The notes beneath the pieces are model-generated. The model was not told the origin of the DNA. It saw only the letters and a program-made list of their open reading frames with translations, and searched no databases. Shown here piece by piece: positions 851-8,438 of a stretch of 36,383 nucleotides of DNA; position 1 is the first letter of the stretch; each line of letters begins with the position of its first letter. A program made the translations under genes and the position numbers. This stretch comes from Candidatus Poribacteria bacterium (lineage in GTDB: Bacteria; Poribacteria; WGA-4E; WGA-3G), in assembly GCA_022827885.1 (NCBI GenBank), contig JAJEIP010000121.1, forward strand, positions 1 through 36,383, in the 5' to 3' direction.

Positions 851-1986
851 ATGAGAAAACAAAAACATAAAGTTCGGCTGACGTCTGAAGAGCGTCAGAG
901 GCTCGAAACGTTAGTTCGCAAGGGAGAACACTCTGCGCTGAAACTCATGCGTGCCCACATCTTGCTGAAGGCGGATCGCAACGGTCCCTGCTGGACGGAT
1001 GCGAAAATCTCCGAGGCGTTCGGCTGCCATGAGCAAACCGTCCACAATGTTCGTAAACGTTTTGCGACGGGTGAGAGACTCGCCGCCTTGGAACGCAAAC
1101 CCCAAAGTCGACCGTCTCGATTGCCAAAACTTGACGGTGCCGGCGAAGCGCGGCTGATCGCCTTGGCTTGTAGCGACCCACCGGCAGGTTTTTCGCGTTG
1201 GACGTTACAACTCCTTGCTGATGAACTCGTCGCCCTGGATATCGTCGAAAGTCTGTCTGCTGAAGGCGTCCGGAAGATCCTAAAAAAAACGCCTTACGTC
1301 CACATCGGCAAGCCTACTGGGTGATCCCACCCGATGAAGATGCCGACTTCGTTGCGGCGATGGAGCAGGTCTTAGAGGTGTATCAACGTCCCGAAGATCC
1401 TGCGGGGCCGGTCGTCGCAATGGATGAACGTCCTGTGCAGCTCCACAAAGACCTTCGTCCGCCTCTGCCTGCGAAACCCGGACGCATCGCCCGCAGAGAT
1501 TACGAGTATAAGCGCATTGATGTAGTTTCGGCGTTCTTATTTACCATCCCCCTTCAAGCGTGGCGGCGGGTCTCGATCCGAGAGCGCCGCACGGCTATAG
1601 ATTGGGCAGAGGAAGTCAAATATCTTTTAGACGCAGTTTATCCCGAGGCTCAGCGAGTGACGTTAGTTTGTGATAATCTCAATACGCATAAAATCGCTTC
1701 TCTCTACAAAGCGTTTGCTGCCGAGGAGGCACTTCGATTGTCTTCACGCTTAGAGTTAGTGCATACGCCAAAACACGGAAGTTGGTTGAACATCACTGAG
1801 ATTGAGCTCAGTGTCTTCTCAAGGCAGTGTCTGAACCGACGGATCCCTGACCTACAGACGCTGCGATCCGAAGCAGAAGCTTGGCAGGCACATCGGAATC
1901 AGACGGCGAACCGGGTGGACTGGCAATTTACAGCAGAAGACGCACGCATCAAACTCAAAAGACTATATCCGCAAACTCAAAGTTGA
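851..1986 (+). CDS. IS630-family transposase, two frames joined by predicted -1 frameshift
   Basis: Cuts and joins DNA at TA targets. The first frame (851 to TGA at 1322-1324) carries the N-terminal helix-turn-helix: MRKQKHKVRLTSEER, then an HTH region around FGCHEQTVHNVRKRF. The second frame (open to 1986) carries the catalytic part. The DDE residues are visible as the D of VAMDERPVQ, the D of VCDNLNTHK and the E of GSWLNITEIE. The frames are related by -1, and an A8 run at 1282-1289 gives a canonical A AAA AAA slip. After slipping, the product reads LKKNALRPHRQAYWVIPPDED, matching the family consensus, and is about 378 residues, a normal length. Start ATG 851 has an AGAGG upstream; an in-frame GTG at 803 is less likely. 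Whether the shift is programmed or a simple mutation cannot be decided here. Confidence 0.85.
1282..1289 (+). other. A8 slippery site of the transposase
   Basis: In frame 0 the codons are CTA AAA AAA ACG. Slipping back one base after the second AAA gives AAC GCC TTA CGT and continues into the catalytic frame. IS630 members are known to use such A-runs for -1 frameshifting; its use here is inferred. Confidence 0.65.
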
Positions 1987-4706: not shown

Positions 4707-4738
4707 TAATTATCAAATGATTCGCAGGTAAGTCTACT
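4707..4738. repeat. Shared 3'-flank repeat, copy 2
   Basis: It differs from 286-317 by one base and, as there, follows the orphan sorting-domain tail on the minus strand. Confidence 0.85.
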
Positions 4739-4744
4739 TATAGC

Positions 4745-4868
4745 TTATATCAACATTTTGTGTGTCGCAGTGAAATCGCCTACAGTCAGTGAATAAAAAT
4801 AAACGCCACTTGTCACAGGTTCGCCGAGTGCGTTTTTGCCACCCCAATGTGCTGCACGACTCCAAGAT
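4745..4868 (-). pseudogene. Orphan C-terminal sorting-domain tail, copy 2
   Basis: The frame reads SRAAHWGGKNALGEPV, then TSGVYFYSLT and ATHKMLI, then TAA. It is nearly identical in plan to the tail at 313-500 but shorter and missing the final RK. Similarity between the two copies starts within about five bases of the sigma-factor stop codon (4869-4871), and the tail is in another frame from the sigma gene. It therefore looks like the stub of a lost secreted-protein gene joined behind the sigma gene, not part of that protein. Confidence 0.65.
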
Positions 4869-6272
4869 TTATTTGGGAATAATGAATGCAAAACGGGCTT
4901 CGTGCTCAAACCCCTCAGGATCGGACGCATTAAACAGTATGGCAGGATGTTCTGCATCTCCTGCCTCAACGGTCCCATTTGAAACCAGCCATAGACCGAT
5001 ACCGGTGTCACGGTGTGGGTATCTATCATCCCGCGCGACACTGAAAATTTTCGGAAAGCCATCAGGTGTCAGAGCAAACGGTTCACTCGCGACGAAAAAA
5101 TCCCCCAGCAACTTTCCCGTTCTCCAGTCCGGCTGGTCGACAAATTGCAGACGCAGCTGCGCCGCTGTCTCAACCGGACACGTTTCAAGTCCCATCTGTC
5201 TGGCGCGATCATAAATGGTATCAAGGGGGGCAAACGCATCCTCAGCAAACCCCATCTCCTGCATAGAGACAACAACAATATCAACTGTTATTTCCTCTGC
5301 CACTACTGGAAAATCCGGATTTTCAAGGGCTTGCGCCGACCATAGGCTGAGCCTGCATTTTTCTTCAAGCAGTGTCTCTAAAAGAGCAACACCGCTCCTA
5401 TGGGTCCCGAGTATTATGGTAAAATCAGCAACGAAACCCTTTTCATCTTTAGCGAAACCTTTTTCGTCTTTTGGGTCTTCATCACTGCGCGCAACGTAAA
5501 GAGTGTAAAGTTTCTGAAAACGTTCAAGATATTGGGTACCGACACTGAAAATCAATAGCGTTACTACAACCAAAGCAGTGCCAATAGCCACCCACGGCAA
5601 GAACGGTTTCATTTTCGGCGGAGGGATCGGGTTCATGTCAACAACTTTTCGCATGATGTTCTGCTTTATACGCGATGATATCTGCACGCCACCGAGAACT
5701 TCTCGGACCAAGAGTTCTTCCTCTTCTCGTAACCGTTTTCTGGCACGATACAGCCGAACCTTTACTGTCTCCACTGACACTCCCAGGAATCTACTAATCT
5801 CCTTTATCGTCATCTCGCCGAGATAATGGAGCGTCACCACTGTCCGTTCACCGTCCGGTAGTTTTGCCAAAAGTTTTCTGGCGATTTCAAAACGATGTTG
5901 GGTTGCTTCTGTCTCGCGCTGTTCCGATATGTAATGGGCGTAAGCAGCTTCTTCGACCTCTTCCATAGGTGTGTCCTCCAAGGATTGTAAGTGTTTCTCA
6001 AGTTTCTGTTTGCGCAGCCACTTCAGACACAGCCGATCCGCAATGACGCAAAGCCATCTAAGAAACCGGCTCGGATTCCTCAGCGTTGAAAGTTTTTGGT
6101 AGGCGAGGAGGAAGGTATCTTGCGTAATTTCTTCGGCATAGTGAAAATCATCAATTTTCTGCCACGCGAGAGCGTGAACGCTTTTTTGGTATTTTTCAAC
6201 TAAAATGCTGAATGCTGTGTCATCACCTGACAAAACGGCATGAATCAACTGGACATCGTCTTCTCTTTCCAC
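4869..6272 (-). CDS. ECF-type RNA polymerase sigma factor with membrane-anchored C-terminal domain
   Basis: 467 residues. Residues about 21-90 form sigma region 2 (AFSILVEKYQK, YAEEITQDTFLLAYQKL, RFLRWLCVIADR). Residues about 130-182 form region 4 (LPDGERTVVTLHYLGEMTIKEIS, then the helix-turn-helix VSVETVKVRLYRARKRL). A single membrane span follows at about 224-246 (FLPWVAIGTALVVVTLLIFS), then about 220 residues predicted outside the cytoplasm. Ordinary ECF factors end after region 4, so this is a fusion. The tail contains a duplicated KDEKGF motif and a part near LETCPVETAAQLRLQF that resembles a domain of uncharacterised bacterial proteins (from memory, uncertain). Start GTG 6272 is preferred because AGGAGGG lies just upstream; the open frame continues to 6374. 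Inference: a sigma factor held at the membrane, released or controlled by an external signal, with no separate anti-sigma gene nearby. Confidence 0.85.
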   Translation of the reverse strand: MEREDDVQLIHAVLSGDDTAFSILVEKYQKSVHALAWQKIDDFHYAEEITQDTFLLAYQKLSTLRNPSRFLRWLCVIADRLCLKWLRKQKLEKHLQSLEDTPMEEVEEAAYAHYISEQRETEATQHRFEIARKLLAKLPDGERTVVTLHYLGEMTIKEISRFLGVSVETVKVRLYRARKRLREEEELLVREVLGGVQISSRIKQNIMRKVVDMNPIPPPKMKPFLPWVAIGTALVVVTLLIFSVGTQYLERFQKLYTLYVARSDEDPKDEKGFAKDEKGFVADFTIILGTHRSGVALLETLLEEKCRLSLWSAQALENPDFPVVAEEITVDIVVVSMQEMGFAEDAFAPLDTIYDRARQMGLETCPVETAAQLRLQFVDQPDWRTGKLLGDFFVASEPFALTPDGFPKIFSVARDDRYPHRDTGIGLWLVSNGTVEAGDAEHPAILFNASDPEGFEHEARFAFIIPK

Positions 6273-6747
6273 GGATCCCTCCTCATGAATAGATGGAGCG
6301 GTGCTGAAATCCACTAAAACGTCCAAGTCGACACTGAGGTTCGGACGTTGTGCAATGCAATACGGTTCACACAAGCATATTATGACAATATATTAGGACT
6401 TACGCATTTCCTCTTGATAAGGGCGGGGAAGTCCATGCGGACTTCATACCCGGGGAAGCCCATACGGGCTTCATACCGTTGATTCTGATTCTTTAGGGGG
6501 TTAAATAAGACGAAGTAACGAGTTTTGAGCGAAACAAATTCTTTTTTTTGTTCAATTTGCGCAAGTCCTCTATATATAAGGATACAATTTTTAGGCAAAA
6601 GGTTACATAATGTGAAAAAATTATGGATGGGCAATTTTAGGAAACCGATGTTGGGTTTCAAGGAAGCGTGGAAACGGTGGAAGGGAGGAAAAACAGTTTA
6701 TGCTACAAAAAATTTGGATGTAATAGAGATGTCCGATTTTCCGGTCT
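6273..6747. other. Intergenic region with tandem hairpins
   Basis: No gene is visible. The main content is the tandem hairpin repeat at 6424-6477, preceded by TAGGACTTACGCATTTCC. The open frames in this region are short and lack ribosome binding sites. Confidence 0.5.
6424..6477. repeat. Two tandem 27-bp hairpin units
   Basis: Units 6424-6450 and 6451-6477 are adjacent direct repeats. Each folds on a seven-base stem: GAAGTCC/GGACTTC in the first and GAAGCCC/GGGCTTC in the second. The stem difference is compensated on both sides, so pairing is kept. Confidence 0.8.
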
Positions 6748-7404
6748 TTATGTTTGTTGGCTTGGGGCAGATAAGACGCCTCGGGACGCGCCCATTTCTT
6801 GTTCTCGTAGGACAACTCTAACGTTCGGGGCACGGACCAGCAAAAGTCCGACAAGCGCGTCATGGGATTGTCCACAGGCAAAACGGACGGTATCGTTGTT
6901 ATCGGTTGCGCCGCTTTCCATTTCCCCTAATTTCATCAAGCCACCTGCAATCGCTGATATCCGGCGTGTCGCACCTCTGCCTTCGCCGTTTGCGCGCACC
7001 TGATACGTGCCGTTTCCAGTTGCATCGACGGTGATGGTAAGACGGGATTTCCTATCCAGTATGTTCAAAGGACGGGGTTCGGCAGGAGTGTTTGATGCGA
7101 GTTTGCATGCCTCCAAAAAGACGCGACGGCATGCGGCTTCGTGGGGGTGTTTACAAGGGAAATAGAGCAACCCATCGTCGGTTTTTTGCATACCACCGAG
7201 GATTTGCATGGCTTGCACAACTTCCTGAATTCTCCCAGTCGCACCCTTCATTTGGCTATAGGTATGAACAAGAAAGGCGGGGAAACCCGTTCCCGCAGTT
7301 GTATCCGCAACTTGCTGGCAATAGAGTCCAATGGTAATATCGTGAAAGTGTGGATCGATGGGTATGAGTTCAATGCGTCTGCCGATGTCGACAATACGTC
7401 TCAT
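6748..7404 (-). CDS. Conserved unknown protein with two copies of a ~90-residue domain
   Basis: 218 residues, soluble, no signal peptide. I know of no assigned function. The protein is an internal duplication: residues about 23-103 and 121-196 align, with KGATGRI (53-59) matching RGATRRI (143-149) and FPCKHPHEA (82-90) matching FACGQSHDA (175-183). The pattern F-x-C-x-x-x-H-[ED]-A is kept in both halves (C84/H88 and C177/H181), so a metal or thiol role is possible. The C-terminal part VLREQEMGASRGVLSAP looks highly conserved. Start ATG 7404 is chosen (GAGGG eight bases upstream) over GTG 7419. It follows the serine hydrolase gene after 20 bases and is probably in its operon. Confidence 0.7.
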   Translation of the reverse strand: MRRIVDIGRRIELIPIDPHFHDITIGLYCQQVADTTAGTGFPAFLVHTYSQMKGATGRIQEVVQAMQILGGMQKTDDGLLYFPCKHPHEAACRRVFLEACKLASNTPAEPRPLNILDRKSRLTITVDATGNGTYQVRANGEGRGATRRISAIAGGLMKLGEMESGATDNNDTVRFACGQSHDALVGLLLVRAPNVRVVLREQEMGASRGVLSAPSQQT

Positions 7405-7424: not shown

Positions 7425-8360
7425 TTAGCGACGGACGAGTCTACCGCCGTAGTGATTTTCATAGATGTACTTATAGGCACGTTCTGAGAGCCGTCGCAAA
7501 ATAAAGGTGCGCTGATTTCTCCAATTCGCGAAGGACTGCCAGCGGTTTTTGTAGCTTGTTTTGGTTCTGTCCTCCATGAGTCCAACAAAAACATAAGGTC
7601 TCGATTTACCTTGCGGGTCCCGGAGCACTAATATGCCGCCGTCTCCTACCAATCCGTAGACAGTGCCGGTTTTGTTATAAACCGCCACCCATGAGGGGAT
7701 GTAGGTTTGTTTGAAGATATAATCTCCGTTTTTGAGTTTGAAGTACCACTTCATTTTCTCGGAATACGGGAGGCGTCCGTGCCATAACCGCACAAAGAAC
7801 GTGCTGATATCACGAGCGGAGGTCATATTCCTGTAAGTCCGTCCACCGGCGGGTATGTATTCGACAATCCGGGTCTGTTTAAAATACGGATAATTGGTGC
7901 GTAGTATCCGGTCCACGCGTGCGGGTCCGCCAAGCAACCGAATAAAGTAGTTGGTGGATAGGTTTGAGCTCACCTGGATCATTGCTCTCAGGTGTCCCCT
8001 ATTTGTATTCGTGTGTGCTTGGCGTCCGTGTTTTACTTCATGAAAGTAGGCAAGCATGACGAAATTCTTAATCAGGGAGGCTGCCATCATCTGCCGGTCT
8101 TCGTTGATGGACACCAATTTTTTATTTTTTGAGATATCGTAGACGACGAAACTCGTCCGATCGGTTGTTGAAAGGACGCGGCGATTCCGCTTGTTTTTGA
8201 TATAAAGCTCAAAAGTTACCTCCAAAGGCGAATCGATCGTCCCTCGGATTTTACTCGGGACATTCCAATATTTTCCTGCTACCGCGCTCCCTATCGGAAA
8301 GAAGAGCGCAATACTACAACAGATGAGAAGAGGGTATAATGTTCGTATGTATCTCAACAT
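7425..8360 (-). CDS. Secreted serine hydrolase of the class A beta-lactamase / penicillin-binding fold
   Basis: 311 residues from ATG 8360, giving a clean signal peptide (LLICCSIALFFPIGSAVAG, residues 11-29). The three motifs of the serine penicillin-recognising fold are present in order: S95-L-I-K98, S131-S-N133 and K230-T-G232. Family members are beta-lactamases, D,D-peptidases or other periplasmic acyl-serine hydrolases. No omega-loop glutamate motif of true class A enzymes is obvious, so a peptidoglycan-related or unknown substrate is as likely as antibiotic hydrolysis. The C-terminal quarter (KNRWQSFANWRNQRTFILRR) is strongly basic. Upstream ATG 8426 is possible but would bury the signal peptide. 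The duplicated-domain gene follows after 20 bases. Confidence 0.75.
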   Translation of the reverse strand: MLRYIRTLYPLLICCSIALFFPIGSAVAGKYWNVPSKIRGTIDSPLEVTFELYIKNKRNRRVLSTTDRTSFVVYDISKNKKLVSINEDRQMMAASLIKNFVMLAYFHEVKHGRQAHTNTNRGHLRAMIQVSSNLSTNYFIRLLGGPARVDRILRTNYPYFKQTRIVEYIPAGGRTYRNMTSARDISTFFVRLWHGRLPYSEKMKWYFKLKNGDYIFKQTYIPSWVAVYNKTGTVYGLVGDGGILVLRDPQGKSRPYVFVGLMEDRTKTSYKNRWQSFANWRNQRTFILRRLSERAYKYIYENHYGGRLVRR

Positions 8361-8438
8361 TCTATCGCCTATTTCCTTTTTTCCCAACAGGTGGAAGGTA
8401 TTATATCTATGCGTGCAAGAGGACATCTGAGTTGTGAA

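Follow-up and report, generated by a model that had tools for sequence, protein, structure and literature searches.

In known corrinoid methyl-transfer systems, the donor enzyme is the substrate-specific part (PMC12478193, PMC13222342). The MtgBCD and split methionine synthase systems of Ruegeria and Phaeobacter consist of a separate corrinoid protein, pterin and homocysteine methyltransferases, a RamA-type activator and DUF1638, an accessory protein without an assigned role (PMC12478193, PMC5764234). In Phaeobacter, whose methionine synthase is split, DUF1638 is an accessory associated with RamA; its mechanism is unexplained (PMC5764234). The type 1 mlp clusters of obligate anaerobes encode two or three Mlp paralogues, which are MtaA-like enzymes with a His-Cys-Cys site, together with a corrinoid protein and Ram/RACE but no folate methylase, and demethylation of sulfur or selenium compounds has been proposed for them; the His-Cys-Cys site is the mark of sulfur or selenium methyltransferases (PMC10418091). 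In the chloromethane systems Cmu and Cdm, a donor enzyme of the URO-D superfamily, a corrinoid carrier and a tetrahydrofolate acceptor are used (PMC3621897, PMC13222342).

Here we describe a small protein with an internal duplication that accompanies a methyltransferase of this kind. Its gene lies in a 36,383-nucleotide stretch of a Candidatus Poribacteria genome (contig JAJEIP010000121.1; the window herein). Like MtgBCD and the split methionine synthase, the system has a separate corrinoid protein, a RamA-type activator, an accessory protein without an assigned role and, depending on the lineage, pterin and homocysteine methyltransferases; it differs in that the donor is of the MtaA/CmuA type (URO-D fold) rather than MtgB (PF06253), and the accessory is the duplicated protein, which is unrelated to DUF1638. 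With the type 1 mlp clusters it shares MtaA-like His-Cys-Cys enzymes, a corrinoid protein and a Ram-type activator. A type 1 cluster calls for two or more MtaA-like genes, belonging to the Mlp2 and Mlp3 types, whereas each locus here has one MtaA-like gene plus the duplicated protein, often with folate or homocysteine acceptors; the one exception, the Chloroflexota locus L081, has two MtaA-like genes of the same subfamily. As in Cmu and Cdm, a URO-D superfamily donor, a corrinoid carrier and a tetrahydrofolate acceptor occur. CmuA, however, unites the donor enzyme with the corrinoid protein in a single chain, CdmB is without zinc whereas the MtaA-like enzyme here has a predicted zinc site, and these papers describe no counterpart of the duplicated protein for either system (PMC3621897, PMC13222342).

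The protein consists of two homologous halves

The 218-residue protein (Table 1) starts at the ATG at position 7404, and the same methionine begins its homologues. A preliminary description, made from the sequence alone, had pointed out paired F-x-C-x3-H-[DE]-A motifs in two copies of about 90 residues. The motif pair was borne out: across all six reading frames of the whole window the pattern is found in just two places, both within this protein, one per half and 93 residues apart. To compare the halves, the family alignment was split at residue 106/107 and the two parts were aligned profile against profile with hhalign, which gave a probability of 96.7 and an E-value of 4.4e-10 (61 columns, 28% identity, score 56.6). 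The scores of 60 column-shuffled controls were at most 21.0, and that of a reversed half was 14.9. Judged by these profiles, the internal duplication is real and the protein is a pseudo-dimer in sequence, as had been proposed; the copies are shorter than described, the homologous core spanning about 60 residues in each half instead of 90. An AF2 model built from 33 sequences (pLDDT 83, pTM 0.79) likewise predicts strands followed by helices in a similar order in both halves. The C-terminal half modelled alone had a poor pLDDT of 58, too low for a fold search.

Table 1. Features at and next to the gene for the duplicated protein in the window.
Feature	Positions	Strand	Basis or remark
Gene for the 218-residue duplicated protein	6748..7404	-	Stop codon included, coding part 6751-7404; open reading frame and homologues with the same start
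N-terminal half, residues 1-106	7087..7404	-	hhalign to C-terminal half, E 4.4e-10
C-terminal half, residues 107-218	6751..7086	-	hhalign to N-terminal half
Best-conserved stretch, residues 11-28 (IELIPIDPHFHDITIGLY)	7321..7374	-	Family alignments
Cys/His motif 1, residues 82-90, FPCKHPHEA (C84, H88)	7135..7161	-	Sequence and conservation
Cys/His motif 2, residues 175-183, FACGQSHDA (C177, H181, D182)	6856..6882	-	Sequence and conservation
Serine hydrolase of the Beta-lactamase2 family, upstream neighbour	7425..8426	-	Pfam PF13354, E 1.4e-20

The protein matched nothing in Pfam, NCBIfam or PHROGs above curated cut-offs, its distant relatives had no Pfam match, and a sequence search of the PDB with the family found no matching solved structure. 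The PF07796 (DUF1638) profile did not match the protein at E-values up to 10. When the model was compared with the PDB and with viral models using Foldseek, nothing fell below E 0.001 (best E 0.11), and the weak matches were RPB11/Rpo-L-like. Candidate identities were set aside: sequence and profile searches for a known family returned chance-level matches only, and the VIA fold matches, of which the best (Z 6.4) paired the N-terminal half alone with a urea amidolyase domain and the next were to microcompartment shell proteins and kinases, were within background. The fold pointed to no convincing relative that could suggest a role. We found no paper describing the family. By these searches the family is undescribed in the libraries examined, in keeping with the earlier suggestion that the protein might be new.

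The Cys/His quartet is shared by most members

In all 47 distinct sequences from Poribacteria and all 8 from Alphaproteobacteria, residues C84, H88, C177 and H181 are unchanged. Among eight Chloroflexota sequences the quartet is whole in two and broken in six, which read SYHL (three), DYHR, KIDH and TLDY at these positions; five lose all four residues and one keeps H181. Keepers and losers interleave on the tree, which corresponds to at least two losses. Since the four residues are present together and nearly always lost together, their pattern suggests a single site to which both halves contribute; the simplest candidate is a Cys2His2 metal site, structural rather than catalytic, in most members. 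As the quartet is lost in some Chloroflexota, it cannot be essential chemistry. The Cys-His pairs, which had been read as marking a metal or redox protein, thus behave like one shared metal site that is constant in Poribacteria and Alphaproteobacteria but not universal. For that reading a lack of Cys/His conservation in homologues had been named as refuting, and in part this is what was observed. Conservation in nearly all members is instead found at G8, E12, L13, D17, R58, D117, Y134, R148, F175, D182, A192, N194 and G209, and in the near-universal stretch IELxxxDPHFHDI[ST]x[GA]LY.

The constant neighbour is an MtaA/CmuA-type methyltransferase

The preliminary description had viewed the protein as a metal or redox protein in its own right, with a link to the secreted serine hydrolase encoded next to it. 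The hydrolase gene does adjoin the family in 23 poribacterial loci, and the Cys/His motif is indeed duplicated. The gene is missing, however, near the family in other poribacterial families and in Alphaproteobacteria and Chloroflexota, with no case outside the phylum, and the duplicated protein has no signal-peptide-like start visible in its sequence. When open reading frames were clustered in the 47 loci with flanks, one other family was present in 47 of 47, with a protein of about 350 residues encoded just downstream. The proposed link to the hydrolase did not survive this comparison, and the constant methyltransferase neighbour largely refutes a stand-alone role, which we now regard as highly improbable. 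The hydrolase is a lineage-specific neighbour and is not thought to be part of the system.

By profile and alignment, the constant partner is a URO-D-fold corrinoid methyltransferase of the MtaA/CmuA type. Three partner proteins tested against TIGR01463 (MtaA/CmuA) scored 244.7, 239.2 and 228.7 bits, two of them above the cut-off of 235.4 and the third just below. The closest match in the PDB, and so the closest solved relative, is MtaA (methylcobamide:CoM methyltransferase, 4ay7), with which the zinc-type residues, H-x-C and a distant C, align; in the partner these residues, H244, C246 and C322, are invariant and are predicted zinc ligands. MtaA of methanogens methylates coenzyme M, unlike the system here, and to our knowledge needs no such partner protein.

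The gene for the duplicated protein was found in 69 of 85 Poribacteria genomes, normally as a single copy and 60-89% identical to that of the window, and the carriers make up one order. Relatives occur in 5 of 400 sampled Chloroflexota and, within the alphaproteobacterial class, in 8 of 289 genomes, as well as in named assemblies of Dehalococcoidia, SAR202 and Alphaproteobacteria; plasmid and phage collections held no relatives. In 67 of the 69 poribacterial carriers the MtaA-like gene follows directly on the same strand, after a gap of 13-977 bases, and in all the Chloroflexota and alphaproteobacterial loci examined it is likewise the next gene downstream. The two non-adjacent cases are the window's own genome, where the partner is on another contig (C37), and genome G053, where it is likewise elsewhere. 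These two genomes have common sequence on both sides of the duplicated-protein gene, and it was because of this rearrangement in the window's lineage that the partner had been hidden from the preliminary description.

Several other features of these surroundings were observed. An ECF sigma factor gene (4869-6374, minus strand), whose product continues after the sigma factor part into a hydrophobic segment and then a C-terminal extension of no assigned kind, is located at the rearrangement beside the duplicated-protein gene. A repeat of about 160 bases, 77% identical, is present at 286-441 and 4707-4867, and overlapping reading frames at 803-1324 and 1321-1986 (plus strand, together 803-1986) resemble an IS630-type transposase in two frames. 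Elsewhere in the window's genome, proteins with dockerin-like repeats (ASDVNADGVINIL) are encoded beside the MtaA-like gene (L121:1400-3618).

The two genes also co-occur closely. Among Poribacteria with the MtaA-like gene, 69 of 71 have the duplicated-protein gene as well; of the exceptions, G077 has an MtaA gene truncated by the contig end, and the MtaA of G012, 48% identical, belongs to another subfamily. In Chloroflexota co-occurrence was 5 of 6, the sixth genome (G218) having a mere 161 bases of contig left before the end upstream of its MtaA gene, and in Alphaproteobacteria it was 8 of 8, the two sets of 8 genomes being identical. Near the genes of other MtaA-like subfamilies, at 44-50% identity, no relative of the duplicated protein is encoded, an observation that weighs against the partnership proposed below. 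A mirror-tree comparison of the two proteins gave r = 0.96 overall and 0.76-0.89 within groups, values that are inflated by shared ancestry. At L081 (5184-7286, minus strand), a tandem pair of MtaA-like genes stands behind a single duplicated-protein gene.

Adjacency and co-occurrence would also fit a helper in corrinoid loading or reactivation, or an MtaA-specific chaperone. The strictness of the pairing, together with the Cys2His2-like quartet of most members, might be explained if the duplicated protein were a chaperone of the MtaA-like enzyme or served its maturation, for instance by inserting zinc through the quartet. The Chloroflexota members without the quartet are nevertheless still paired with an MtaA-like gene, so metal delivery by the quartet cannot be general, and we consider a maturation factor improbable.

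Methyl acceptors differ between lineages

The poribacterial locus L092 (family f4) has the order duplicated-protein gene, MtaA-like gene, corrinoid protein, RamA/RACo, MTHFR with its C-terminal domain, pterin methyltransferase and homocysteine S-methyltransferase. Alphaproteobacterial loci consist of the duplicated-protein gene, MtaA-like gene, corrinoid protein, RamA and pterin methyltransferase, and Chloroflexota loci have an additional homocysteine S-methyltransferase and an upstream PF13769 protein. In poribacterial family f1, to which the window belongs, the genes for the corrinoid protein, RamA and homocysteine S-methyltransferase are found apart from the duplicated-protein gene, which stays with the MtaA-like gene. 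The window's own genome, tested for a three-part corrinoid system, was found to encode both the cognate corrinoid protein and a RamA-type activator, together with the homocysteine S-methyltransferase on contig C44. Separate corrinoid, pterin and homocysteine methyltransferase genes are thus all present in f4 (L092), while no pterin methyltransferase of related type was found in the f1 genomes, including that of the window. Nearly all poribacterial carriers encode the cognate corrinoid protein, at identities of about 80% or more. In most Poribacteria its gene and that of RamA are located away from the duplicated-protein gene.

As the locus contents differ by lineage, the core comprises the duplicated protein, the MtaA-like enzyme, the corrinoid protein and RamA, and the acceptors are variable: a pterin methyltransferase with or without MTHFR, a homocysteine S-methyltransferase, or both. 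A second, MetH-sized match to the corrinoid protein was observed in most f1 genomes and in few genomes of families f2-f4. Poribacteria of the latter families may therefore depend on the split system to make methionine.

DUF1638 and the duplicated protein have complementary distributions in Poribacteria

The main rival explanation is that the duplicated protein is an accessory for corrinoid reactivation or handling that takes the place of DUF1638. DUF1638 was detected in 11 of 85 Poribacteria genomes, all of them non-carriers of the duplicated protein (11 of 16 non-carriers against 0 of 69 carriers; Fisher p 2e-10), and a PF07796 profile search of the window's genome gave no match. It was also found in none of the 9 checked Chloroflexota genomes with the duplicated-protein gene or its MtaA partner, and in Chloroflexota genome G381 about 930 bases separate a DUF1638 gene from an MtaA-like gene that belongs to another subfamily. 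At that locus (L130, contig C83), genes for RamA, MTHFR and pterin methyltransferase are also nearby.

This exclusion may be a matter of phylogeny, however, as the poribacterial carriers are one order, and DUF1638 is present elsewhere in the genome of 4 of the 8 alphaproteobacterial carriers. Where the operon is split, moreover, the duplicated-protein gene remains with MtaA and not with the corrinoid protein and RamA. Because the gene keeps to MtaA in this way, we favour a partner of the donor enzyme and hold a stand-in for DUF1638 to be unlikely.

Discussion

Our data point, with a probability that we put at roughly 0.55, to the duplicated protein being an obligate partner, either a subunit or a dedicated helper, of one subfamily of MtaA/CmuA-type corrinoid methyltransferases, the pair serving as the donor-side module in a modular system for vitamin-B12 methyl transfer. 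We read them as the donor side because it is the donor enzyme that carries substrate specificity in known systems. The MtaA-like enzyme, its His-Cys-Cys zinc site intact, would take the methyl group off a soft substrate, methylated on sulfur or selenium, and move it onto a Co(I) corrinoid protein, RamA would re-reduce the corrinoid when oxidised, and either tetrahydrofolate or homocysteine would accept the methyl group. In f1, the family of the window, in which no such pterin methyltransferase was found, homocysteine is the probable acceptor. The duplicated protein is envisaged to bind the MtaA-like enzyme, where it could present the substrate or dock the corrinoid protein, and a structural Cys2His2 metal site may join its halves in most members.

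A more specific proposal, which we offer tentatively, is that the protein is a corrinoid methyl-transfer component of a new class: a pseudo-dimer that, in sponge symbionts, enables an MtaA-type donor methyltransferase to act on a compound methylated perhaps on sulfur or selenium and, in the main poribacterial family, to supply methionine directly via homocysteine without folate. The partner enzyme is of a known kind; the system is a corrinoid methyltransferase variant that has not been described before.

Within the main Poribacteria order almost every genome has the gene and its MtaA-like partner, as do some Chloroflexota and Alphaproteobacteria, and the protein has a name in no library searched. 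Its complementary distribution with DUF1638 may help to explain the role of DUF1638. If the duplicated protein proves to be a functional component of a B12 methyltransferase, two genes, one corrinoid protein and one activator would provide a handle for finding the substrate, and the protein would point to a methylated nutrient of sponges that has gone unrecognised and to a route to methionine that bypasses folate.
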